Below the pieces are notes generated by a model that was given only the letters and a program-made list of their open reading frames with translations, was not told the DNA's origin and made no database searches. Below are positions 6,326 through 32,020 of a DNA stretch of 32,129 nt, in pieces. The stretch lies in IMG/VR virus record IMGVR_UViG_3300009636_000024, positions 1-32,129 of that record. The stretch is one strand, 5' to 3'. The DNA comes from a virus. Both the position numbers and the translations under genes were made by a program. Each line of letters starts with the position of its first letter. Position 1 is the first letter of the stretch.

Positions 6326-6978
6326 TGCCGCTTGTCACTCTCGGGGCCTTGAAAGCACGGGTTTATTCCAGGCTGGATGGCAACACATTACTTTACCAGC
6401 CGTCCGAAGTGGCTAGTGCGCTTAACGAAGCGGTCCAGGTCGTCAACCTCTCCACGGGGTTCATCCAAGGCACATTCCAGATTCCAGGGTGGTCTCAGGC
6501 CAACCGAATCTGGTACGACACCCCCGCTCAGATCCTCATTCCCCTGCGCGTCACCTTTGAGGGTATGTACCTTCAACCGACGACGCTTTGGCAATTGGGC
6601 GCTTCTTATCCCAATTGGACGGCAGACACAACCAGCAGTGTGGGGCTTCCTGTTTCCTATTGGGTCCCGTGTGGTCTGACGAAGTTCGGGATCTACCCCG
6701 CTGATTCCCTTGGTGGCTGTGACATCAGGGTAACTGGAGTGATGGAGCCAGTCCCATTGGTGGCCGATACGGACATCCTTAATCTCCCCAACGAGTACGC
6801 CAGCGCCGTTGATTTTCTGGCGGCACATACTCTCATGCTGAAGGAATCTTCGACTATCTTTGCCCACGGATCGACGGACTATCAGAAGTACCTGTCCGTC
6901 AACAAGAAGATGACAATATGGAAGGGGCTGACGCAACCGCGCTACTTTATCCCAGAGGCGCAGCAGGCGAAAACATGA
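6325..6978 (+). CDS. Adaptor-like neck protein 2 (217 aa)
   Basis: Length and layout match the podoviral head-tail adaptor family: an N-terminal helix with ALNEAVQVVNLSTGF, a beta-rich middle, and a terminal helical part with KFGIYPADSLGGCDIRVTG followed by LPNEYASAVDFLAAHTLMLKE. In known phages such proteins form a dodecameric ring under the portal. Of the three adaptor-like genes in this window it is the most compact. The GTG start overlaps the previous stop (TAGTG) and is preceded by AAGGTG. Its own stop overlaps the lysozyme start (ATGA). A -1 frameshift at 6310 could add the upstream 96-aa protein to its N-terminus. Confidence 0.6.
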   Translation: MPLVTLGALKARVYSRLDGNTLLYQPSEVASALNEAVQVVNLSTGFIQGTFQIPGWSQANRIWYDTPAQILIPLRVTFEGMYLQPTTLWQLGASYPNWTADTTSSVGLPVSYWVPCGLTKFGIYPADSLGGCDIRVTGVMEPVPLVADTDILNLPNEYASAVDFLAAHTLMLKESSTIFAHGSTDYQKYLSVNKKMTIWKGLTQPRYFIPEAQQAKT

Positions 6979-7496
6979 CCGACGAATTCAAGGCAAAACT
7001 GATCGACATGCTCTCTACCCACGAGGGTCGCAAGGCTTGGATGTATCCCGATACAGCGGGGAACGTGACCGTGGGGGTTGGGCACCTTATTTTTTCGTCC
7101 AGCGCTGCAACACAGTTAGGGTTTACCGACGTAAATCTCGACACAGCATCAGAGGAGGATGTTGTCAACGGATGGAATTTCGTCAAGTCCAGCAACCAGG
7201 AATACAAGTCCCTGATATTAGCAGACAGCGCAATTGACAATCTCCTGATGGGAGACGTTTCTCACTTCTACCTTGTCTTGATCCAGACTTTCCCGGCGTT
7301 TGAATCGTATCCCGAGCCAGCGCAATTGGGCCTCTACGACATGGTATTCAACCTGGGGAGCTTTCGAGCTTTCCCACGATTTGGGGCGGCTGTTCTAAAC
7401 CGGAATTGGGCATCGGCGGCAGCGGAATGCCAACGCGAGGGCATTGGAGCCGCCCGCAATCAGGATACAAAGAATCAGTTTTTGGAGTGCGCATGA
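6975..7496 (+). CDS. T4-type lysozyme (GH24 muramidase), 173 aa
   Basis: This enzyme hydrolyses the N-acetylmuramic acid to N-acetylglucosamine bond of peptidoglycan. The catalytic arrangement of T4 lysozyme (Glu-x8-Asp-x5-Thr) is fully present as Glu17, Asp26 and Thr32, within HEGRKAWMYPDTAGNVTVG and followed by GVGHL. The C-terminal MVFNLGSFRAFPRF segment is also typical of the family. No signal peptide or SAR anchor is visible, so release would need a holin, or the enzyme may be carried in the virion. The start at ATG 6975 is chosen because it overlaps the upstream stop (ATGA) and gives the usual family length. Both ends overlap tail or neck genes by four bases, an unusual site for a lysis endolysin. 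The 14-bp palindromic repeat occurs inside it at 7275. Confidence 0.9.
   Translation: MTDEFKAKLIDMLSTHEGRKAWMYPDTAGNVTVGVGHLIFSSSAATQLGFTDVNLDTASEEDVVNGWNFVKSSNQEYKSLILADSAIDNLLMGDVSHFYLVLIQTFPAFESYPEPAQLGLYDMVFNLGSFRAFPRFGAAVLNRNWASAAAECQREGIGAARNQDTKNQFLECA
7275..7288 (-). repeat. Dispersed 14-bp interrupted palindrome, copy 1
   Basis: On the minus strand it reads GTCTGGATCAAGAC and is antisense to the lysozyme gene. It is identical over 15 bases to the intergenic copy at 29732. It lies inside codons for LVLIQTF, a reading frame unlike that of the copies in the large polyvalent protein. Confidence 0.7.
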
Positions 7497-16514: not shown

Positions 16515-17156
16515 GTGCCAAACACGAGCGGCTACGCAGAGTTAAAAACATCGGACCTCCAGGACGAAACCCTCTTCGCCCTGAATCAGAGGATGCGCTA
16601 TCTATACCAGAAGGTGTCTGGCGTTTACGGACAAAACTCCCCCAATCTGCTCTCGTCCCCTACTCTGGCGACAGCCTACTCTTCGCAGCAGACGGCCCAG
16701 AATGTATCCCCAAACGAGTTCATCACGAACGCGGTTGCCAATAAGCTCTACGGGATAGCAGCTATCCAGGCGGCAATCAATAGCGGCAAGCTTCAGGTTG
16801 GTGGGCCGAACGGCCAACAGGTAGCACAGGCAGCACTTTTCACGATCATCACCCTAGCGCAGCTTCCTACGGCTGGAACGCTGGCTACAAATGCCGACAA
16901 TGCCGGGATGACGTTCTTCATCAGCGACTACTACCACTGGCTCCAGTTTAACGGGACAGGGTATCAATGGCATCCGTGGGAGCCGGATGGATCAGCCTAT
17001 TACCGACTAGCGGCCTCTTCTCCCAATTGGGGTAGGTGGGTTTCAGTCAGCAGCGGAGGAACAGCCGCCTTCCTGCAATCTAACGGGACGTTGGGGTTGG
17101 CTACCCTGACAACAGTGACGCCGGGGTTCTTTACAAGCGTATGGTTCAGGCAATAA
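16515..17156 (+). CDS. Phage tail/fibre-associated protein (213 aa)
   Basis: I recognise only a general phage tail character. The N-terminal half is helical (ETLFALNQRMRYLYQKVSGVYG and an Ala/Asn/Gln-rich stretch). The C-terminal half contains short aromatic strands (FFISDYYHWLQFNGTGYQWHPW, YYRLAASSPNWGRWVSVSSGG) as seen in small domains of phage fibre proteins. No signal peptide, membrane helix or catalytic motif is visible. The GTG start is one base after the previous stop and is preceded by AAGGA. The 3' end overlaps the next gene by 16 bases in another frame. It closes the host-contact cluster before the ejection-protein genes. Confidence 0.55.
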   Translation: MPNTSGYAELKTSDLQDETLFALNQRMRYLYQKVSGVYGQNSPNLLSSPTLATAYSSQQTAQNVSPNEFITNAVANKLYGIAAIQAAINSGKLQVGGPNGQQVAQAALFTIITLAQLPTAGTLATNADNAGMTFFISDYYHWLQFNGTGYQWHPWEPDGSAYYRLAASSPNWGRWVSVSSGGTAAFLQSNGTLGLATLTTVTPGFFTSVWFRQ

Positions 17157-17734
17157 CTCTCAAAAAAGACGGTCCTCTCTACACGATGGGCGATCTGATC
17201 GTGGCCCCAGTCTCGATGGACCTTCTCGCCAGCGCGTATCTGACAATGAAAATGGACGGCACGCTCTCCGTGCTGTTCTACGAGTCAGATCCCGGCATTC
17301 CAAAGTTTCTTGCCACGTACTCTGATCCCAACGCCATCACCTACGGCTGCTACCTGAAGTCTGGAGACAAGACAAGCCTTATTGGGATCGGACATATTGC
17401 TGTGCCCCTGGGGAGAGGGGATGGAAGCAAGAAATCAGAACTGGGCTGTGCCTTTTTTGCTGGATACCAGCATCGGGATGTGACCTTCCCGCTGTCCCAG
17501 ATGATGTTGGAGCAGACCTTCGACCGCTACGACATCGACGTTCTGTTTGGGACGACGCCCGAAAAAAACAGAGCCATGCTGATGTTTATGAAGAATCTGG
17601 GGTTTGGGCACACTGCCGAGCCCGTCCCATACTTCACCACTTGGAAGGGCGAGGTTTGCGGGGTCTATATTTCGTGGATTACGCGGGAGATGTGGGAGGA
17701 GCTTAGTCCTTTCAAGGACCACGATTCCCAATAA
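17141..17734 (+). CDS. GNAT-like acyltransferase-fold protein (197 aa)
   Basis: The segment at residues about 138-160 (GTTPEKNRAMLMFMKNLGF) matches the GNAT helix with the Asn and the LGF turn that follows the acetyl-CoA-binding region. ELGCAFFAGYQHRD and the following helix fit the strand and helix before it. The C-terminal WKGEVCGVYISWITREMWEEL is typical of small phage GNAT-like proteins. Several T7-like phages carry an acyltransferase-like protein at the gene 13 position, just before internal virion genes 14-16; this gene is in the same position. Whether it still acetylates anything is unknown; a structural or chaperone role in core assembly is possible. It overlaps the upstream gene by 16 bases and has no strong Shine-Dalgarno, so coupling is likely. 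Confidence 0.6.
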   Translation: MVQAITLKKDGPLYTMGDLIVAPVSMDLLASAYLTMKMDGTLSVLFYESDPGIPKFLATYSDPNAITYGCYLKSGDKTSLIGIGHIAVPLGRGDGSKKSELGCAFFAGYQHRDVTFPLSQMMLEQTFDRYDIDVLFGTTPEKNRAMLMFMKNLGFGHTAEPVPYFTTWKGEVCGVYISWITREMWEELSPFKDHDSQ

Positions 17735-20394: not shown

Positions 20395-23300
20395 ATGGCA
20401 ACCCCGCCGAATTCGACTGCGGACCTGATTAGCCTGTGGCAAGGACAGCCGCAACCACATTCTACGCCTAAATCCAGCAAGTCGGAGCTATCTACTCCTA
20501 AGACTACAGCAGATCTGATTGGTTTGTGGAGTCAGGCTCAGCCCACTACCGCGCAGCCAACCACCCCTCCGCCAGTCCCAGGGATGGGCGCTTTAGGCCC
20601 TCCTCCGCCTGTCGCCGCGCCAAAGGTCAACGTGCAGCCGCAGGGTGGTCTGGGGATGCGAGCCTATGGGATAGCAAACCAGTTCGCCGAGCAGGCGCAG
20701 ACTGGCTTACCACAAACATTAACCGGCAAATCCCTAGCCCAAAGAACGGAAGAGGCTAATCAAAACCAAGTCATTACTATCCCGAACCCTAGTGGTGCGC
20801 CTTATATTCTGCCTCCAGGGACATGGGGCCACGATTTTGTTTCTAAAATGCGCGAAAAAGGCGCTGGTTTAGCCGACTTTATGATGTCGCCGTTAGGTGT
20901 GACAAGTCTTATAGGCCCAGCCGCCGCAGGGGGAAAGGCGCTTATTTCGCGACTTGTTAGCGGCGCGTATGCAGTCCAGATGGTCCCAAGTGCCATAGAG
21001 AAGACCGCTAAGGCTATCAAGAACCCAACTGGGGCCAATGTTGCCGATGCGATTGGCGATGCTCTTATGGCTGGCCCGTTAGCAGCGCATACGGTCATGC
21101 CTGAAGGGGCCACAGCCACAGGAGAGCCACCCACCAAGAGCGAGGCGGTTAAAGAAGCCGTAGGAGAAGCCGCTGCCCCTCCGCCCGATACCCTTCGCAG
21201 AGAACAGGTCGAAGTCGGCAAACTGAAGCAGGAAGATGCTCAGGCCAAAATCTTGGCCCGCAAAGAGGAATTGGCTCGTCAGAAAACGCAAGCCCCTGCT
21301 GTTACGGCTGCGCCGCCTGGAGAGGCCCCTGTTGAGCCGCCCAAAGAATCTGTGCCCGTAACGCCAAAGAAAGGAGGTCCTCCTAGTGCTCAGCAAGTTG
21401 CTCAACCGGAGCAAAGGGAGGTGATCCAGCCGTCTAGCGCGGAGGCCCCTGCCCCGAAGACAGAGGCGGGGGCTACTGCGCCTACGGCGGATCTCAAGCC
21501 GGGGCAAGTGTGGAACCTGAACGGCGGTCTCTACTCCGTCACGGGCATCGAGGCCGACGATTCCGGCAAGCCTATCGTCAAATACGACTTCACCGGGCCG
21601 AAGGGGAACAAGAACCCCAACCAGAAGATCCCACATGCGGCGTTTACCAGCATGATGTCGAAGGGCAAGCTCCAGGGTGCGGCAGAGGGCACTGCTGCGC
21701 CGCCAGCGGCGGCGGAGCCTCCGGTCAAGGCGGAAGCGGCCAAGCCCGTAGCGAAGCCGCCAGCGGCCACTACGTTCTATCGAGGGACGGTCCCCGGATC
21801 TACGGAAAGGATAAAAGAACCATTTGAAGCCGCTAAGGGGAAAACCTTCGTAGCCCGCAAGCCTGAATCGGCCCGTAACTACGGGAGCGAGATTGAAGAA
21901 GTTAAGGCCAAGCCTGGAGCCAAAATACTTTATGAGGGGACTCCTGAGTTTGGGAAAATATGGGGCCACAAGAAGTATGACCCAGAGTTAGACTTCACCA
22001 ACCAAACCAAGAAGGGAGAGAACCAAACCGGCGTTGTAAACGAGATGGTTCGCAAGGCGCAATCGGCGGGGTACGACCTTATTTCTTTCAAGCGAGATTC
22101 GGACATCGGCTCAATCATATTGAACGAGGATGCCTTTATAAGAGGCCGCAAGCCGACCGAGCCGCCAGCGGCCAAGGCAGAGCCAATTAAGCCGCCTCTC
22201 AAGCCGAAGCCTGCGCCGAAGCCCGCTGAGTCTGTATCCAGACAAACCCCGCCCGCTGCTGCGGCTAAAGCCGCAGAGCCGCCCGCACCGAAGATTGACC
22301 CTGAAGAACTCCCGGCGATGAAGAGGCTGAGAGCGGCAGGGCAAGCCATCTCCGACACGGAACTGACGCAGCTTCAACTACCCAAAGCCAAAGTGATACT
22401 GGCGAAGCTCAAGCAAGTAGGGGAAGCCGCATTGGCGGAAGCCGACAAACAGGCCGATCCCAATGCAGCGGCAGAGCTAAGAAGGGTAGCGGCAGAGACG
22501 GACAAGCGTGCGGATGCCATTAGAAACAGAGCAAAGGTGCTGGAGCAAGAGCAGGCGGCGAAGGCCGCGCCGAAGGCGACACCAGCGCCGCCTACTACAC
22601 AAAACGCTCCCTCAAATGAGGCGAAAAAACAGGAAGTAGCCGCACCTCCGCCAGAAGCGAAGCCCGCGCAACCTATTGAGCCGCCAGCGGCTAAAGCGGC
22701 TGAAGCGACAAAACCTGCTCAAATTATTCCAGAAAATATTCCGCCTGTGCCTGCGGTGGATACTGCCGCAATCAAGCGCACAACCCCGGCTCTCAAAACT
22801 CCTGAGAGAGATAAACTCGAAGCCGACTACGAGGCGCGTAAGCAAGAGAGCGAAGCGCTGTGGGAACAGGTCGGTGATCTTGAGAAACAACGCAATGCTG
22901 CTAAGCCCTACAGTAAGAAGAGGGAAGCTCTTGAATCTAAGATTGAAAAGCTCAAAGACAAACGTGGGAAAATTGATGCGGAGTATGAGCCACTACGGAA
23001 GCAGAGCTACCAAGCCGAACTAGAAGACGCTGCATCGCAGACCGAAAATGAAATTGCTAGGATCACTGCTGAGCGTAAGATTGAAGAGATGCGCCTTCAG
23101 GACGAAACGAAGGCTGGTAAGTTCAATAATGAAGAGTCTCTGAAATTCCAGAGGGGATGGAAAGCGGCGCACCAAGCTATCGTTGATGAACTAAGGAAGA
23201 AAGCACCAGAGGTTGATTCTAGGGAAGATAAATACGAATCCCTAAAGAAGCAGTTGGCGTCTCTTTCTCCAGAAGAAAACGCTAGGGCAATAGAGGACGC

Positions 23301-26300
23301 TCTTGATAGGCTAGCTAGGGACTTTATTGACCATCCGCTTTTGGCAACTGACGACATAGGGAAGCGACTGGAGGGCTTCCTTTACGGCTCCAGAAATAGG
23401 GTCATAGCGGAGAAGGTCAAGACCTATGGGGAAGCCAAGCTGAACGAGATTGAAGCCCGCTACATGAAGGCGGCTGGCAACGCCCCTCCGAAGTCGTGGG
23501 AATTCGCAGATGCCCGAAGGAAGGTGGAAGAGGCCCCAAGCATCGAGGCTGCCGATAAAGCTCTAGAGAACATTACCGCTCTCACCGATGGATTGATCGA
23601 ACAGAAGCGCCTGCAAGAAAAAACAGCCAAGCGAGAGACTAGAGATTTTTCTAAGTCCTTTCGCCCATTGTCAGGGATGCGCTCTCCGGCTATCACAGAA
23701 ACGGACGCCTGGAAGGGGAACGTAACAGAAGGGGATCTTGCCTTCGATGGTAAGAGCGTTATCGACACTAGCGCTATTAAGGATAAGTCTAGGGCGGAAG
23801 GAGTCAAAGCTCCATCTAAGGTCCAGTTTGAGAGGTATCCGAAAGAAAACGCCGCTAAGTCTTGGGGGAATATCAAGAAGGCAGCTACCACAAGTTTAGA
23901 GGAAATCGGTCACGCCGAACAAAAGGGAATTGATTACGCCGTCTATGCAATGCCCGATGGCTCCGCGATTGTCCTCAGCGCTAAACAGGTCCGGTTGATA
24001 AAAAGTCTGACTGGATTTGACGAAGCGCGTGGAAGCGGGATAGACAAGCCAGTTGTTTTCTACAAGAAGGGCAACGCGGTTGCAGCCACAATGCCATACA
24101 TAAACGCTGCAACCGTCGATCTCGACGTGGCTCGGAAAGCAGCCAAGGGAGCAAATACCCCACCTCCTCCTGGGGCCGAAACTGCTTCTGCGGAGCCTCC
24201 CGCAGCGGCAGAAGCCGCAGAACCGCCGCAGGCGGCAGCAGTGCCGGAGTCTGCATCCAGACAGACGGCTCCCCCTCCTGGGGCTCCTGCGCCGAAGACG
24301 CCCCCAGGCGGGGAGAAGCCCACTCTCGGGGGTAACGTCCTTGAACGCTTGGTTGATGCAGGCCGCGAAAGCGACAAGTGGCTCCGAGAAAATGGGATCA
24401 TCGGCGGGGGATCGCTTTCGGCTAACCGCGCTCTCGACCCGCAAGCTGTCTACCACCTCACGCGATCAATAGCGGGCGATGTTGCCAGGGGTGTTATCTC
24501 TCTACAGGACGCTGCCGCTAAAACCCTGAAAACGCTGCGAGAAAAGTTTGAGATTGGAGCATTGTCGGCGCGCGATATTGAGGGGAAAATCCAGGAGCAT
24601 ATTGACAAAGCATCGGCGCTTTCTCAAATAACTGAAAAGATAGGGAATAAGCAGATCAGCCCAGCTTCTCCGTACTTGTCCAGAACAAAGGCGAATGTCC
24701 GAGAGTCTTGGAGGCCGCTAGGCGAAAACGTAGCAAAGGCATGGGAAGCTACGCGGGCCGCTCCTAAGCGTCTCTGGGAAGCATATGAGAAACTAGCGCC
24801 ATGGACAAGCTTTAAGGATACTGTCGGTCGTTATGACGGGCAGTTGCAGTTCGGCTCTTGGGAGATGAAAAAGTTCCGAGACACGATCAGAACTGCAATC
24901 CCAGATAAGCTCAGGCGTGAAGCCATCACCAATTATGTGCAAGCCAATGGGGATATGTCCGTCCTGGAGCAGCGGGCTAAATCTTCATCTTCGGCTCATC
25001 GTCCAGGCTATAACACTGCGCTGACACTCAACCCTGCTGAAATAGAGATCGCCAAGAATGTTCGGATCTATTTTGACCAGAAGCTCGACGAGGCCCATAA
25101 CGCAGGGATGCTAAAGGATGGTGTTGAGAATTACGTGAACCAGATATGGGACCGTGATCCAGACAACCCCGCAGCCAAGAACCTTATTGCCGCCGCCGCT
25201 TTTCATGAACTCCAACCGAATCCAGCCTTCCTTAAGAAAAGGATTTTCGAGAGCTATTTTGAGGGTGAGCAGGCAGGATATAGGCCACGCGACAAAGACA
25301 TTGGTGCTCTGATTGCCGCTTACGATCAGAGCTTCAATACGGCGGTAGCCTCTCGTGCGTTCATCCGAAACCTGCATGACGGCGTGGCGTCTGACGGACG
25401 ACCTATTGTGGAGATTGCGGGAACTGGGAGGAAAGCCGAGCCCACTCCAGGAGAAGTTCAGATCTATATCAAGCCGAAGGTAAGGCCAGAAAATACTATT
25501 GACTATAAACCAGTAGACCATCCCGCCCTGCGGGGATGGAAGTGGGCAAGCTCCGACGAAAAAGGCAACCCCATTTTTGTTCAAGGAGACTTCCTGGTGC
25601 ATCCCGAGTATGCGCAGAAGCTCAAGAACATCTTGGGGCATAGCGCCGTTCGTAACTATGCTGTGGGACGAGCCGCCTTAGCCTTGTCTAATGGATTCAA
25701 ACAGACGTTACTAACGCTCTCACCATTTCACCAAGTTCAGATTGGAGTCCACGCGCTAGAGCATACTGTCAGCCCCGTCAATGTTCCTAAATTGGATCTT
25801 AATAATCCAACGCAGCGGGCGCTTGTTAATCACGGTCTGATGGTAGCTGAATTTCGAGGAATGGATGAGTTTGCGGAAGGAGTCTCGGGGACGGGGCTTC
25901 TCAAATTGGTGCCGGTCTTGGGGCAAAAGATGGAAGAGTATCAAGACTATCTCTTCCGCGAGTACATCCCGCGCATAAAGATGTCGATGGCCCAAGAGGC
26001 GCTGGAACGCAACCGTGGCAGATACGCAGGGAAACTGTCGGAAGACCAAATCCTAGCATTAACCGCGAACCAAGCAAATGCGGCATTCGGGCATCTCAGC
26101 TATAAGTTACTGGCGCGTAATCCTACTTTCCAAGACGTCTTCCGTCTTTTAGCCCTAGCCCCTGATTTCCTAGAGGCTCGTTCCCGCTTTGTTGCACAGG
26201 CGGCTAAGCCTTATGGCCGCGAACAGTTACGAGCCTTAGCTTTAGGTGCTGCCGCAATGACGGCGGGGAAATTCGTCATCGGGCAAGTGGCAGGCGAAAA

Positions 26301-27084
26301 GCAAGACTGGAGCCTTAACCATTTGTTTTATGTCCGCCTCGGAGGGCGCGAATATGGGCTGCGAACGATCCAAGGGGATCTGGCCCACATGCTAAGCGAT
26401 CCGCGCAGTTTCATTAGTAACCGTCTCAACCCAGCGGTTACCAAGCCCGTAATGGAGGGAATAACTGGACGCGATCAGTTTGGAAGAAGGCGTAGCGCCA
26501 TCAAACAATTCCAGGATTATTTCAAGACCGCCGTGCCAATCCCATTTAAGGGGTTGTTGCCAGATCAGCCGCAGGACTTAATCAGTACATTCCTGCAATC
26601 TACAGGTGTTCAGAGCCGCCAATACACCAGCAAAGCGCAGCAGGTGATTAAGGATTACTACGGTGATAACCCATTGTACGAGCCCACAGAGAGGACCAAA
26701 GCGGCAAAGCAGATAGTAGACGCCGCTCGATCTGGTGATATGGCTAAGGCGCAAAAAATAGGAGAACAGGCAATCAAGGCTGGGGTATTACAAGAGAAGG
26801 ACGTAGGCCACGCGATTGAGAAGGGGCGAAAGGGACCTCTGGCCGCTGGGGTTAAGTATGTCCCATGGACGACAGCGATTAAGGTTTATGAGGCGGCGAC
26901 TGACGAAGAGAGGCAGCAGATTGGCGAGGTTGTTGCCAAGAAGCTAGAGAACGCTTACAAGAAAGACCCCGCAAGTTTTACTCCTGAAGTTTGGAAGAAA
27001 CTGACGGAGTTGGGATTCATTGGCGCTGAATCACCAACGTCGGAACAGCGAACCGCTCCCCCTCCAGGGGCAGAGAGGATGTAG
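20395..27084 (+). CDS. Giant polyvalent ejection-type protein with candidate ADP-ribosyltransferase domain (2229 aa)
   Basis: This is the largest gene and sits where T7 has gp16. Two N-terminal short repeats (TADLISLWQGQPQP and TADLIGLWSQAQPT, residues 9-22 and 38-51) are followed by helical and Pro/Ala/Lys linker regions. A small beta module lies at about 368-420. A candidate ADP-ribosyltransferase fold spans 459-582, with Arg463 (FYRG), FVARKPESARNYG at 485-497, a GYDLISFK segment and Glu578. Charged coiled coils follow at about 800-1090. An unassigned alpha/beta domain (1096-1244) ends with VVFYKKGNAVAATMP. About 900 helical residues follow, with a hydrophobic stretch near 1943-1966. Large polyvalent proteins of phages commonly combine such domains and are injected with DNA. 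No peptidoglycan hydrolase domain was recognised. The ATG has only a weak Shine-Dalgarno (AGAAG). Confidence 0.55.
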   Translation: MATPPNSTADLISLWQGQPQPHSTPKSSKSELSTPKTTADLIGLWSQAQPTTAQPTTPPPVPGMGALGPPPPVAAPKVNVQPQGGLGMRAYGIANQFAEQAQTGLPQTLTGKSLAQRTEEANQNQVITIPNPSGAPYILPPGTWGHDFVSKMREKGAGLADFMMSPLGVTSLIGPAAAGGKALISRLVSGAYAVQMVPSAIEKTAKAIKNPTGANVADAIGDALMAGPLAAHTVMPEGATATGEPPTKSEAVKEAVGEAAAPPPDTLRREQVEVGKLKQEDAQAKILARKEELARQKTQAPAVTAAPPGEAPVEPPKESVPVTPKKGGPPSAQQVAQPEQREVIQPSSAEAPAPKTEAGATAPTADLKPGQVWNLNGGLYSVTGIEADDSGKPIVKYDFTGPKGNKNPNQKIPHAAFTSMMSKGKLQGAAEGTAAPPAAAEPPVKAEAAKPVAKPPAATTFYRGTVPGSTERIKEPFEAAKGKTFVARKPESARNYGSEIEEVKAKPGAKILYEGTPEFGKIWGHKKYDPELDFTNQTKKGENQTGVVNEMVRKAQSAGYDLISFKRDSDIGSIILNEDAFIRGRKPTEPPAAKAEPIKPPLKPKPAPKPAESVSRQTPPAAAAKAAEPPAPKIDPEELPAMKRLRAAGQAISDTELTQLQLPKAKVILAKLKQVGEAALAEADKQADPNAAAELRRVAAETDKRADAIRNRAKVLEQEQAAKAAPKATPAPPTTQNAPSNEAKKQEVAAPPPEAKPAQPIEPPAAKAAEATKPAQIIPENIPPVPAVDTAAIKRTTPALKTPERDKLEADYEARKQESEALWEQVGDLEKQRNAAKPYSKKREALESKIEKLKDKRGKIDAEYEPLRKQSYQAELEDAASQTENEIARITAERKIEEMRLQDETKAGKFNNEESLKFQRGWKAAHQAIVDELRKKAPEVDSREDKYESLKKQLASLSPEENARAIEDALDRLARDFIDHPLLATDDIGKRLEGFLYGSRNRVIAEKVKTYGEAKLNEIEARYMKAAGNAPPKSWEFADARRKVEEAPSIEAADKALENITALTDGLIEQKRLQEKTAKRETRDFSKSFRPLSGMRSPAITETDAWKGNVTEGDLAFDGKSVIDTSAIKDKSRAEGVKAPSKVQFERYPKENAAKSWGNIKKAATTSLEEIGHAEQKGIDYAVYAMPDGSAIVLSAKQVRLIKSLTGFDEARGSGIDKPVVFYKKGNAVAATMPYINAATVDLDVARKAAKGANTPPPPGAETASAEPPAAAEAAEPPQAAAVPESASRQTAPPPGAPAPKTPPGGEKPTLGGNVLERLVDAGRESDKWLRENGIIGGGSLSANRALDPQAVYHLTRSIAGDVARGVISLQDAAAKTLKTLREKFEIGALSARDIEGKIQEHIDKASALSQITEKIGNKQISPASPYLSRTKANVRESWRPLGENVAKAWEATRAAPKRLWEAYEKLAPWTSFKDTVGRYDGQLQFGSWEMKKFRDTIRTAIPDKLRREAITNYVQANGDMSVLEQRAKSSSSAHRPGYNTALTLNPAEIEIAKNVRIYFDQKLDEAHNAGMLKDGVENYVNQIWDRDPDNPAAKNLIAAAAFHELQPNPAFLKKRIFESYFEGEQAGYRPRDKDIGALIAAYDQSFNTAVASRAFIRNLHDGVASDGRPIVEIAGTGRKAEPTPGEVQIYIKPKVRPENTIDYKPVDHPALRGWKWASSDEKGNPIFVQGDFLVHPEYAQKLKNILGHSAVRNYAVGRAALALSNGFKQTLLTLSPFHQVQIGVHALEHTVSPVNVPKLDLNNPTQRALVNHGLMVAEFRGMDEFAEGVSGTGLLKLVPVLGQKMEEYQDYLFREYIPRIKMSMAQEALERNRGRYAGKLSEDQILALTANQANAAFGHLSYKLLARNPTFQDVFRLLALAPDFLEARSRFVAQAAKPYGREQLRALALGAAAMTAGKFVIGQVAGEKQDWSLNHLFYVRLGGREYGLRTIQGDLAHMLSDPRSFISNRLNPAVTKPVMEGITGRDQFGRRRSAIKQFQDYFKTAVPIPFKGLLPDQPQDLISTFLQSTGVQSRQYTSKAQQVIKDYYGDNPLYEPTERTKAAKQIVDAARSGDMAKAQKIGEQAIKAGVLQEKDVGHAIEKGRKGPLAAGVKYVPWTTAIKVYEAATDEERQQIGEVVAKKLENAYKKDPASFTPEVWKKLTELGFIGAESPTSEQRTAPPPGAERM
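21699..22691 (+). repeat. Four dispersed GCCGCCAGCGGC units in linker codons
   Basis: The 12-mer GCCGCCAGCGGC, itself an inverted repeat (GCCGC-CA-GCGGC), occurs exactly at 21699-21710, 21756-21767, 22161-22172 and 22680-22691. It encodes Pro-Pro-Ala-Ala-type linkers between domains of the giant protein. Codon reuse in duplicated linkers explains it most simply. Confidence 0.7.
22230..22243 (-). repeat. Dispersed 14-bp interrupted palindrome, copy 2
   Basis: On the minus strand it reads GTCTGGATACAGAC. The sense strand encodes ESVSRQ (residues 612-617 of the giant protein) in the linker just after the ADP-ribosyltransferase-like domain. Confidence 0.7.
24249..24262 (-). repeat. Dispersed 14-bp interrupted palindrome, copy 3
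   Basis: On the minus strand it reads GTCTGGATGCAGAC, identical to copies at 27974 and 30679. The sense strand encodes ESASRQ (residues 1285-1290 of the giant protein). The identity with the 30679 copy extends to 20 bases (24244-24263 against the reverse complement of 30678-30697). Confidence 0.75.
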
Positions 27085-27961: not shown

Positions 27962-28607
27962 CTGGGGCCTCTTGTCTGGATGCAGACTTTAGCAAAAAGC
28001 AGAAGTACACATCTGGGCCAGCGGGCACGTCTACGCGGCAGTCGAATGGGTCTACGATCTCTAACCCTGCCTTCAGAAACAGCCCACGCCACCCCTCTTG
28101 GCCGAAACAGGAATAGTGGTTAGCGTTTCGGAAATGCTCACTAGGCGTGCTAGGGCTGGGGACTTCCACATAAAGGAACCCGTCAGGGGTAAGCTGATCT
28201 CTTAGGGCTTCCAGGAGGAAGAGGGGGATGGGGGAGTGCTCGACGATGTGCCGAGCCCAGACCAAACTGAATATCCCTTTGGGCCAGAGGGCGATCTCGT
28301 GCATGTCGGCTTGCTGGAAACAAAACTGCGTTCCTGCCGCCCACAGATCGTCCGGTACGTCCTCCAGGCGGGACGTAACCCCCTTATAGGTTTTGTACCC
28401 AGCTTCTCCAAACATCTTTAAGGCAAACCCATCCGCACAGCCTACGTCCAGAACCTTTACACGCTTTTCTGGGGGAATGGACTTGAGCACTCGCTGAAAG
28501 ACTTGCTGAGAGATTGAGGCATGAAAGGCAAGGTTGTCGGGAGGTTCGGCGTAAGCCGTAGCGCCACAGCGAAGGACGAATTCAGCGAGTTTGGAAGCAA
28601 GGTCCAT
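27948..28607 (-). CDS. Class I SAM-dependent methyltransferase (219 aa)
   Basis: Motif I (VKVLDVGCADG, residues about 50-60), a later acidic strand (QQADMHEIALWP) and SLVWARHIVEHSPIPLFLLEA, followed by LTPDGFLYVEVP, fit the methyltransferase 11/23-type Rossmann fold. It transfers a methyl group from S-adenosylmethionine; the substrate is unknown, but two glycosyltransferases in the same operon suggest a sugar or modified base. No (D/N)PPY DNA amino-methylase motif or Cys-containing C5 motif was seen. The start at ATG 28607 shares one base with the preceding stop (TGATG); an in-frame start 15 codons earlier is less likely. Its C-terminal KSASRQEAP resembles the SRQ linkers of the giant protein because of the shared 14-bp repeat. 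Confidence 0.8.
   Translation of the reverse strand: MDLASKLAEFVLRCGATAYAEPPDNLAFHASISQQVFQRVLKSIPPEKRVKVLDVGCADGFALKMFGEAGYKTYKGVTSRLEDVPDDLWAAGTQFCFQQADMHEIALWPKGIFSLVWARHIVEHSPIPLFLLEALRDQLTPDGFLYVEVPSPSTPSEHFRNANHYSCFGQEGWRGLFLKAGLEIVDPFDCRVDVPAGPDVYFCFLLKSASRQEAPDAST
27974..27987 (+). repeat. Dispersed 14-bp interrupted palindrome, copy 4
   Basis: On the plus strand it reads GTCTGGATGCAGAC. It lies in the last codons of the methyltransferase (SASRQ) and 12 bases upstream of the start codon of the two-helix membrane protein. Confidence 0.75.
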
Positions 28608-29704
28608 CACGCCTCGCAGACGGCCAGCAAATCCTTCGCGCATCGCTCCCAAGTCAAATTGGCCTTGATGAACTCCATCCCCTTGCGACCCATAATCTCC
28701 CTGTCGATGGGGCCAAGCTTGTAAGCCTGTTCGACAGCATCGACCACTTCTTCCAACTCCGGCTCAACCCAGCCATTCTCGACCGTAGGCCCGCCGATGC
28801 AAATGGCGTGATCCTCCAGGACTACATCCGAGTGCCCTGTCCCATTGGTAGCGACGATGGGGATACCGCAGGCCATAGCCTCACACATAGGCATGTTGTT
28901 CCCGGCTTCTCCTCTGTTGGGGAACAGCCCAATGTGCGCCTGCCGGTAAACCTGCGGCATCTTCCAGTTGGGCACCATGTCCACCAGCGTATAGCGGTCG
29001 GAGGAAATGCCATTGATGGTCAGGTTGGCTTGGATGCGATCCTTCCAGGTAGCGCCCATCGTTGGGATGTAGCGGATGTGCTTAGAAGCGCAGAGCGAAT
29101 TCATGGTTTCCAGCCACAGGTTACCCCACGCTGCGATCAGGTGCATGTCGGGGTACTTCTGGGAAAGGATCTTGTAGGCCGCGATTACGATGTCCGTCCC
29201 CTTGCGATGTTCGGCCTTGCCGCCGCTGAAGATGTAGAACTTGCCGTCGTTCTTCGGCCCTTCCCCTTCCTTGGGGGCAAACACGTCCGTATCAACCCCT
29301 TGGATGGCAACGGTCGGATGCAGCCCAAGCTCTTCCAGCTTCTCTTTGCACCATGTAGAGCCTGCGACGAGATGCTGATAGTAGCGGTCAACGTGGGGCA
29401 CGTTGCGTTTCGCTTGGTCAGGAAACTCCGTATAGACCCAGCCCACATTGCGCTTCCAGGACCAAGCGTTAGGGTTCACCGGCATGAAAGATACACCGCC
29501 CGTCGCCAGATGCAGCATAGGGTCGTCAGACGCATAGGGCACGTCAGGGCTGAACTCTGGCGGGCAATACTTCTCCATGGGATGTCCTGGAGGCACCTTA
29601 GCCAACATACGGATGTCCGTGAGGGAGGCCATCGTGGGGACGAGGTTGTGCCCCATAATCCCTGCGCCCCACGAGTCCCCAACTACCAAAGAAAGGTTAA
29701 TCAT
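28607..29704 (-). CDS. GT-B family (GT4-like) glycosyltransferase (365 aa)
   Basis: The C-terminal half carries the GT4 pattern: FYIFSGGKAEHRKGTDIVIAA (about residues 156-176), then FPNRGEAGNNMPMCEAMACG, with Glu266 and Glu275 where retaining GT4 enzymes bind the nucleotide sugar, then GIPIVATNGTGHSDVV. The N-terminal Rossmann half begins MINLSLVVGDSWGAGI. It would transfer a sugar from an NDP-sugar to an unknown acceptor such as phage DNA, a virion protein or a host glycan. AGAGGA lies six bases before the ATG. It follows a 75-base gap that holds the 14-bp palindrome and is directly coupled to the methyltransferase by TGATG. Confidence 0.8.
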   Translation of the reverse strand: MINLSLVVGDSWGAGIMGHNLVPTMASLTDIRMLAKVPPGHPMEKYCPPEFSPDVPYASDDPMLHLATGGVSFMPVNPNAWSWKRNVGWVYTEFPDQAKRNVPHVDRYYQHLVAGSTWCKEKLEELGLHPTVAIQGVDTDVFAPKEGEGPKNDGKFYIFSGGKAEHRKGTDIVIAAYKILSQKYPDMHLIAAWGNLWLETMNSLCASKHIRYIPTMGATWKDRIQANLTINGISSDRYTLVDMVPNWKMPQVYRQAHIGLFPNRGEAGNNMPMCEAMACGIPIVATNGTGHSDVVLEDHAICIGGPTVENGWVEPELEEVVDAVEQAYKLGPIDREIMGRKGMEFIKANLTWERCAKDLLAVCEA

Positions 29705-29779: not shown

Positions 29780-30028
29780 CTAGCTTCTCCAAGAGGGCTG
29801 AGTGGGATCGACTGGCGGCTTTTCATTGATGGCAATACTAGCATTGGCCCATTGCACGCACTTCTGAAGATCTGTTAAGGCTAGGGACTTCTCCCGCGAC
29901 TCGGGGCAAGCTCCGTTTAACAGGAGAGCAAACTTCTTAGCGGCCTCGCGGATTCTGCCGTACCTCTCCGCTTGATCCCCGACTGGGGCATGGTACGTGA
30001 AAATATCCTCAATCTGTTCTTTCGTCAC
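29780..30028 (-). CDS. Small protein resembling the Acb2/Tad1 hairpin family (82 aa)
   Basis: The sequence shows the pattern of a widespread small phage family: FTYHAPVGDQAERYGRIREAAKK (residues about 10-32), CPESREKSL (41-49), LTDLQKCVQW and ANASIAIN (61-68). From memory, proteins of this pattern are grouped with the Acb2/Tad1 hairpin domain. Acb2 and Tad1 are phage proteins that sequester cyclic nucleotides or cyclic-ADP-ribose variants and so block CBASS or Thoeris defence. The predicted two-helix hairpin and small size fit, but the ligand is not established. The GTG start overlaps the upstream stop by four bases and has AAGGAA before it. The alternative is an unrelated two-helix phage protein. 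Confidence 0.5.
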   Translation of the reverse strand: MTKEQIEDIFTYHAPVGDQAERYGRIREAAKKFALLLNGACPESREKSLALTDLQKCVQWANASIAINEKPPVDPTQPSWRS

Positions 30029-31365
30029 AAGTATTCCTTCTTTCTCAATGCTTCCTTAACCGCTTCCACCACGGGAGTCCAGTCTCCCAACTTCGTCTGC
30101 CGAAAGATCCGCATCGACCTGTACCACTCTGTCGTATCCCTCGTCATCCCCCAGCGCCAATCTACAATGAGCGGCATGAGCAGATAGCAGGGCACGCCCA
30201 GAGTCCCTGCCAGATGCGCGATGGCCGTGTCCACGGTGATAACCAGATCGAGCCGCTGGATGGCTTCTATCGTAGCAAACCAGTTGGGGAATTCGAGCGT
30301 GAAGTCAAACGCCGCTTTCTCTTCCGGCGAAGCGCCAAATTGCAGGCAGACCGAAGCCGGATCATCGAATAGCGACTTGTCCATCAGTTGCCGCATTACG
30401 TCGAAACTCATAGAGCGGAAACGGTCGTGCGAGTGATTGGCGTTCCCCTTCCAGCAGTACCCAATCCGGCCCTTTACTCTATTAGAAACAGGCGGCAGGG
30501 GATTCTCTTCTGGGATGAGGAAGGGCAGCTTCCGGTCATTCAAGTAACGGAGTGTGGACATCAGAGGGAATTGACAATCCGTAACTGGAATTCGGCCCAT
30601 TGCCGGGTGGCACACTTCAACCCCAAACAGCCGCGCATAATCAGCGATTGTGTCGTCGCACCAGCAGTACCAAGTTGTGTCTGGATGCAGACTCCGGAGC
30701 ACCTTGAAGTAGCGGGCAAACTGGAAGGCGTCCCCAGCCCCTTGCTCTCCGACAATAAGCACTTTCTTCCCACCCAGCGTAGCCCCAGCCACATGCTCGT
30801 AGTGCGGTGTGGGGACAGGCACCCACGGGTTCAGAGTCTTCAGGCGAGCCTCGTAGAATTGCAAGCCTCTGTCCCATTGCCTATCGAGCATGAGCATCAT
30901 GCCAAGGCTCTGCTCTCCTACGGCATTACCAGGGGAAGCGGACAAGGCCGTTTCGTACTCGCTGATCGCGGCTTTGATGTTGCCGCGATACTGCGAGTTC
31001 ATTGCAATTGCAGCGAAGCACTCGAAAGGAAACTGTGCGTTAAGCTCCAAAGACCTAATTAGGTGCTCCCGTGACTCGTCAAGCCTGAGACACACCTGAA
31101 GGGCAACGCCATAGTTGAGGTGCATCGCGGCGTTGTCAGGGGCGATCTTCAGCCCCTCTTCCAATGGGCCAAGCGCCTTCTCCGGCGTCTTCATGTTGAT
31201 GAAGGCGGCTCCCTCGTTCGAGTATGCGTCGGGACAGTGTGGCGAAATCTCAGCCGCCTTCCGAAAGAAAGCGACCGCTTTGTCGGCAGCTTTCTCAGAG
31301 CCCATCATAAATGCTCCAAGCTTGAGGAGGTCGGTTTCTGTCAGGTTAGCGTCGATCTGAATCAT
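30025..31365 (-). CDS. TPR protein fused to a GT9/GT41-like glycosyltransferase domain (446 aa)
   Basis: Residues about 15-185 contain TPR-type repeats (for example AVAFFRKAAEISPHCPDAYSN and ALGPLEEGLKIAPDNAAMHL). From about 205 the sequence changes to a GT-B-like domain with KKVLIVGEQGAGDAFQFARY, GRIGYCWKGNANHSHDRFRS and LVITVDTAIAHLAGTLGVP, as in heptosyltransferase (GT9)-like domains that follow TPRs in many bacterial and phage proteins. The acceptor is unknown; TPRs usually bind a protein partner or acceptor. ATG 31365 overlaps the resolvase stop (ATGA); a longer start at 31413 is unlikely. Copy 6 of the palindrome lies in codons for SLHPDT, in a different frame from the SRQ copies. Confidence 0.75.
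   Translation of the reverse strand: MIQIDANLTETDLLKLGAFMMGSEKAADKAVAFFRKAAEISPHCPDAYSNEGAAFINMKTPEKALGPLEEGLKIAPDNAAMHLNYGVALQVCLRLDESREHLIRSLELNAQFPFECFAAIAMNSQYRGNIKAAISEYETALSASPGNAVGEQSLGMMLMLDRQWDRGLQFYEARLKTLNPWVPVPTPHYEHVAGATLGGKKVLIVGEQGAGDAFQFARYFKVLRSLHPDTTWYCWCDDTIADYARLFGVEVCHPAMGRIPVTDCQFPLMSTLRYLNDRKLPFLIPEENPLPPVSNRVKGRIGYCWKGNANHSHDRFRSMSFDVMRQLMDKSLFDDPASVCLQFGASPEEKAAFDFTLEFPNWFATIEAIQRLDLVITVDTAIAHLAGTLGVPCYLLMPLIVDWRWGMTRDTTEWYRSMRIFRQTKLGDWTPVVEAVKEALRKKEYL
30679..30692 (+). repeat. Dispersed 14-bp interrupted palindrome, copy 6
   Basis: On the plus strand it reads GTCTGGATGCAGAC, inside the TPR-glycosyltransferase gene. The 20 bases 30678-30697 are the exact reverse complement of 24244-24263, although the two genes translate them in different frames (SLHPD against ESASRQ). 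Confidence 0.75.
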
Positions 31366-31856
31366 TTGAGTACTGTCTCGGCAGCGGTGATGGCGACGGC
31401 CAAGGCTGACCACGTATCGGCAGCGAACCCATGCAAGGGGCCGTAGCCGGTCTTCTTCGTCCCGATAGCCTTATCCTTGCCGCCGTAGCGGTCAATGAGG
31501 GCCTGTCTGATGTTGGCGTCTTTGGCTTTCGTGCTTCCGCAGAAATGGATTTTCACGGCTTTGCGAGGAATCCTCACCACGGAGTCGAGGCCGAAGCACT
31601 GAGCGAAGATGCCGCTCCAGTAGACTGTCTCAAACACTTCAGCGCCTACGGCCATGCCGTAGCTGGCTATCTGTTCAATCGCGCAGTAATCGAAATACTG
31701 CACGCCCACGCCGACCAATTCTCCGTCAAGGTCAATCTGTTCCAGGAGAGCCTTGTTTTTGATCTTTCCCCAGTTGAGAGGCTTCCGGTTCTCGGAATCG
31801 TATGAGACCCAAGCTGATTCTTCGCAACCAGGGTCGATAGCTAGGATTGTAGGCAT
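31362..31856 (-). CDS. RuvC-like Holliday junction resolvase (164 aa)
   Basis: The protein has the RuvC-type RNase H fold signature: ILAIDPG with Asp8, YCAIEQI with Glu61, and HGFAADTWSALAVA with Asp147, giving the acidic residues that hold metal ions. Such phage enzymes cut branched DNA before packaging or during recombination. Length is close to RuvC (about 173 aa). The fourth catalytic acidic residue usually found three positions from the last Asp is not obvious. ATG 31856 shares one base with the stop of the 54-aa gene (TGATG); the GTG one codon earlier is an alternative. It heads a coupled set with the TPR-glycosyltransferase (ATGA). Confidence 0.8.
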   Translation of the reverse strand: MPTILAIDPGCEESAWVSYDSENRKPLNWGKIKNKALLEQIDLDGELVGVGVQYFDYCAIEQIASYGMAVGAEVFETVYWSGIFAQCFGLDSVVRIPRKAVKIHFCGSTKAKDANIRQALIDRYGGKDKAIGTKKTGYGPLHGFAADTWSALAVAITAAETVLK

Positions 31857-32020
31857 CACTCTTCCGGCCCGACGATGAAATAGACCCTATGCCCGTCTTT
31901 ATCGTCAAAGTAGAAGTGCCGCTCTGCCATCACGGGATCAAATTGGCGGCTCTCTAAAGGAAGTTGATTCCAAACGCTAAGCCATTCTTTCAGGCTTAGC
32001 TCGATCTTTTCGTAGGGCAC
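31856..32020 (-). CDS. Short hypothetical protein (54 aa)
   Basis: This is a small open frame from GTG 32020 to TGA 31858-31856. The sequence starts MPYEKIELSLKEWLSVWNQL and ends GHRVYFIVGPEE. It is acidic and aromatic, with no membrane helix, and I do not recognise a family. Support comes from position: its stop overlaps the resolvase start (TGATG), it begins two bases after the stop of the next gene, and GAGG lies 10 bases before the GTG. A GTG start and short length lower confidence slightly. Confidence 0.55.
   Translation of the reverse strand: MPYEKIELSLKEWLSVWNQLPLESRQFDPVMAERHFYFDDKDGHRVYFIVGPEE

Follow-up and report, generated by a model that had tools for sequence, protein, structure and literature searches.

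In the Acb2 protein of phage T4 (Vs.4), cyclic GMP-AMP (cGAMP) is contacted by Y8, F82, H11, K23 and R79; L29, F33, A66, A73 and A77 form the hexamer interface (PMC10097602); the substitution T68M reduces binding (PMC12657230). Acb2 and Tad1 also hold trinucleotides at trimer interfaces, separate from their dinucleotide or glycocyclic ADP-ribose (gcADPR) pockets, and in Tad1 a beta-sheet domain lies ahead of the hairpin (PMC12043709). Here we describe an 82-residue hairpin protein, P0001 (MTKEQIEDIFTYHAPVGDQAERYGRIREAAKKFALLLNGACPESREKSLALTDLQKCVQWANASIAINEKPPVDPTQPSWRS), encoded by the 32,129-base viral record IMGVR_UViG_3300009636_000024 (hereafter the window). An earlier note, made from the DNA letters and a list of open reading frames (ORFs), had placed an 82-residue product at 29780-30028, and an ORF on the minus strand occupies exactly this interval. 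We find that P0001 is a new member of the Acb2/Tad1 hairpin family and propose that it is most probably a stand-alone Acb2-like oligomeric sponge for cyclic di- and/or trinucleotides of the kind used by the cyclic oligonucleotide-based antiphage signaling system (CBASS).

Family membership and conservation

The earlier note had suggested the Acb2/Tad1 hairpin family from short motifs, all of which are present in the product (YHAP at residues 12-15, IREAA at 26-30, CPESREKS at 41-48 and ANASIA at 61-66), and the Pfam profile search bore this out. PF24729 matched P0001 with 65.2 bits (E = 6e-18) against a curated cut-off of 27 bits, over residues 11-66 and profile positions 1-57 of 58, which places the protein within the family; Vs.4, with its sequence taken from the T4 record, scored 71.4 bits against the same profile. 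The best PHROG was 1454, a group of unknown function that covered residues 2-71 (E = 1e-21), and no NCBIfam model matched P0001.

Given that a single-sequence phmmer search with P0001 found no chain in the PDB, profile searches were needed, and a family profile was built on 114 relatives, which also underlie the residue counts given below. Against the PDB, this profile found the entry named 'Acb2 homolog 43' (9ptq; E 9.6e-10). Several Tad1 chains were weaker matches (E about 0.01), over the segment running from the SRE motif to the asparagine. When the profile was aligned with the single Vs.4 sequence by hhalign, only the C-terminal helix was covered (probability 57%, E 1e-4), in a register that agrees with that of the Pfam matches.

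Relatives were abundant. Viral contigs yielded 13 close ones, and at least 542 loci when searched with the clade alignment; there were also 201 phage records and 85 relatives in bacterial genomes, many of these in Paenibacillus and other Firmicutes. The nearest bacterial relative (63%) came from a Bryobacterales metagenome-assembled genome. The ratio of nonsynonymous to synonymous divergence (dN/dS) between P0001 and its closest relative was about 0.05, and the gene is under strong purifying selection. The Pfam and PHROG E-values, the abundance of relatives and this low ratio together indicate that the ORF is more than a chance reading frame. P0001 is thus a genuine, well-conserved addition to a known counter-defence family and no new kind of system.

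Predicted fold and pocket residues

The AlphaFold model of the monomer (pLDDT 91) is all-helical and has no strands. It predicts a short N-terminal helix (residues 3-9) and two long antiparallel helices (19-40 and 45-68), the helical hairpin that the earlier note had anticipated, in a layout that matches the Acb2 protomer (PMC10419184). Searching 350,542 PDB chains with this model by Foldseek returned T4 Vs.4 at ranks 1 and 2 and a Tad1-gcADPR structure at rank 3.

The Pfam matches set Vs.4 and P0001 in one register, without gaps on either side of the hairpin loop. In this register the tyrosine and the basic residue of the dinucleotide pocket are both present (Y8 corresponds to Y12 and K23 to R27), T68 falls on a conserved threonine, T52, and H11 is changed to P15. 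The interface residues A66, A73 and A77 fall on A50, C57 and A61, positions that remain small throughout the family: alanine in 109 of the 114 relatives at the first, A, V, S, C or T in 113 at the second, and alanine in every one at the third. Near-invariance extends to several polar and charged residues, with E46 and N62 kept in all relatives, R27 and R45 in 113 each and H13 in 111; T52 is kept in 107. A near-invariant S-R-E motif at the hairpin tip is common to P0001 and Tad1.

Proposed function and alternative readings

We propose that the hairpin protein would form an oligomer, by analogy with its solved relatives a homo-hexamer, and that this oligomer would bind cyclic oligonucleotide immune signals without cleaving them. 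With the signals sequestered, host CBASS effectors would stay off, and the infected cell could survive until the phage has replicated. The earlier note had allowed for either CBASS or Thoeris signals as the ligand, and we infer the former.

Several observations weigh against this proposal. Both of the cGAMP contacts R79 and F82 of Vs.4 are replaced by alanine (A63 and A66), as they are in most relatives (110 and 111 of 114, respectively), and P0001 has low identity to sponges that have been tested, as seen in the empty single-sequence search. Foldseek E-values were 0.25 and up, which alone is not significant, and the VIA-align Z-scores for Vs.4 and Acb2 (6.5, 5.9 and 5.8) lay within the range of unrelated helical hairpins; the assignment is therefore carried by the sequence evidence, and the comparison of folds counted for little. 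Finally, we found neither binding nor infection data on P0001 or its immediate clade.

Because the R79 and F82 contacts are missing, the pocket, as read from the alignment, is not that of a Vs.4-type Acb2. The Acb2 of phage PaMx33, a tested sponge, likewise carries alanine in place of F82, and R67 of this protein aligns with R45 of P0001. We take R67 to touch cyclic trinucleotides; a literature text search for this residue found nothing. Since the two contacts are lost while R45 at the hairpin tip is nearly invariant, we tentatively put cyclic trinucleotides (cA3, cAAG) as at least as likely a ligand of P0001 as cyclic dinucleotides. More speculatively, the SRE-type stand-alone hairpins, with their 542 or more viral loci, might constitute a separate large branch in which the dinucleotide pocket is partly lost, the R45 site is conserved, and the ligand is unlike that of T4 Acb2, being either cyclic trinucleotides or an undescribed signal.

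SMODS nucleotidyltransferases carry the CBASS synthase domain. One was found above cut-off in 8 of 61 genomes of the family to which the nearest bacterial genome belongs, that genome included, an observation that serves as context only.

It is improbable that P0001 is instead a Tad1-like sponge for Thoeris signals (gcADPR isomers). Such a role would fit the alignment of part of the hairpin with Tad1 in an SRE...T..EEA-MW-N motif, as well as the third rank of Tad1-gcADPR in the Foldseek search, but P0001 has only 82 residues and is all-helical in its model. As the beta domain is missing, P0001 is not a Tad1.

We consider it similarly doubtful that P0001, though of the hairpin family, binds no immune nucleotide and has another role, for example as an oligomeric adaptor or regulator. 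The two missing cGAMP contacts and a ligand that is only proposed leave room for this, and the hairpin gene of some relatives adjoins portal, head or tail genes. On the other hand, H13, R27, R45, E46 and N62, polar or charged and almost invariant, point to a conserved binding function, and the neighbours vary widely, unlike those expected of a structural adaptor: no family accounted for more than three of the 95 genes next to relatives, and hence no fixed partner emerged.

Several relatives in Paenibacillus and Brevibacillus phages are recorded as phosphomannomutase. A reading of P0001 as a fragment of this enzyme was rejected as having next to no chance of being right, as it has nothing but that annotation in its favour, no such family appeared among the Pfam, PHROG and NCBIfam matches, and an 82-residue two-helix hairpin is too small for that enzyme's domains. 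Several of the 201 phage records carry this label without support; 'putative phosphomannomutase' is evidently a mislabel of hairpin relatives in, for example, MH460826.1 (35106-35321; L017) and KT151957.1 (L015).

Gene context and divergence from a sister phage

Returning to the proposed sponge, its gene begins with a GTG codon (30028-30026) that shares bases with the upstream gene's stop codon (GTGA), and ends with a stop codon at 29782-29780. This overlap and the preceding AGAAGGA suggest that P0001 is translationally coupled to the upstream gene, within a run of minus-strand genes (Table 1). The plus strand across 29780-30028 is not open, being interrupted by stops.

Table 1. Features of the P0001 locus in the window.
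Feature	Position	Strand	Evidence
P0001, 82-residue Acb2/Tad1-hairpin protein	29780..30028	-	ORF list, Pfam PF24729, PHROG 1454, dN/dS
Acb2/Tad1 hairpin domain, residues 11-66	29831..29998	-	Pfam match; same domain recovered by genome search
Shine-Dalgarno-like AGAAGGA, upstream of GTG start	30035..30041	-	Read from sequence
Upstream gene: tetratricopeptide (TPR) repeats and C-terminal glycosyltransferase-9-like segment (segment below Pfam cut-off)	30025..31413	-	Pfam
Downstream gene: glycosyltransferase group 1 / PHROG 2170	28607..29704	-	Pfam, PHROGs
Further downstream: methyltransferase PF13489	27948..28652	-	Pfam

The accessory-gene setting described in the earlier note holds, with the glycosyltransferase-type genes and the methyltransferase close to P0001. 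Upstream in the same minus-strand run lies a RuvC-like Holliday junction resolvase (31362-31859; PHROG 1770, E 3e-19).

A sister phage was found on a 96-kb viral contig (L001), whose structural protein is 98% identical to that of the window. The P0001 homologue on this contig shares 80% amino acid identity, and the proportion of synonymous differences (pS) was 0.71, with a synonymous divergence (dS) of about 2.2, near saturation and a rough value, as it comes from only 79 codons; dN/dS for this gene nevertheless stays near 0.05. At the protein level, identity is 97% and 93% for the two flanking genes of glycosyltransferase type (pS 0.28 and 0.34; dS 0.35 and 0.45). Still smaller values were obtained for the structural gene (pS 0.10, dS 0.11). 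The P0001 allele is thus far more diverged than its neighbours, which is explained most simply by exchange, as for a counter-defence allele.

The homologue on L001 (6001-6444; also on L002 and L003) is about 68 residues longer, with a CxxC-containing segment at its end (FQCTKCGLMISWR), an extension that the window lacks, and additional small ORFs lie between this homologue and the glycosyltransferase on L001. Elsewhere in the window, a 2229-residue Pro/Ala-rich protein is encoded at 20395-27084 (+); tblastn of 50,697 phage records found no relative of it, and a weak local match was seen in the L001 locus only. A gene among the structural-module genes (17141-17734, +) has a weak GNAT acetyltransferase match under the Pfam cut-off, and an endolysin or phage lysozyme-like gene lies at 6918-7496 (+; PHROG 7, E 1e-6, Pfam match under cut-off).

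Comparison with known sponges

With P0001, an uncultivated phage gains a probable counter-defence gene, and relatives of P0001 in many phage records, labelled 'hypothetical' or 'phosphomannomutase', are likely nucleotide sponges. The preference of the SRE branch for tri- or dinucleotides is the point of real interest: if this branch and T4 Acb2 do differ in their ligands, they would show one two-helix fold retuned between signals. The finding is also relevant to guard systems of the Panoptes type, which are triggered when T4 Acb2 sequesters their nucleotides (PMC12657218).

P0001 shares with T4 Acb2/Vs.4 (PDB 7uq2) the Pfam family, the register, the predicted short N-terminal helix and two-helix hairpin, and the tyrosine (Y8/Y12), basic (K23/R27), threonine (T68/T52) and small interface residues. 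It differs in that the hairpin region of Vs.4 is longer, R79 and F82 are A63 and A66, and Vs.4 has D61 at the position of R45 and hence no SRE motif; its best PHROG (1454) is also not the one that classes Vs.4 (717; PMC10097602). In the Pseudomonas phage Acb2 (p26; PDB 8h2j, 8h2x, 8ixz), Y11 and K26 correspond to Y12 and R27, R67 to R45, and alanine stands at the F82 position as in P0001, whereas R85 (Vs.4 R79) is A63 in P0001, the hairpin region is longer and overall identity is low. The 'Acb2 homolog 43' (9ptq, six chains) is of similar size and is the nearest solved sequence to the family profile; its PEGREKS resembles the PESREKS of P0001, but DTHLV and FATK stand where P0001 has its N-terminal YHAP and its WANA motif. 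Tad1 (PDB 7uav, 7uaw, 8smd, 8kbb-8kbh) has the same hairpin motif, SRE...AxT..EEAxMWxN, but sets an N-terminal antiparallel beta-sheet domain before it, which P0001 does without.
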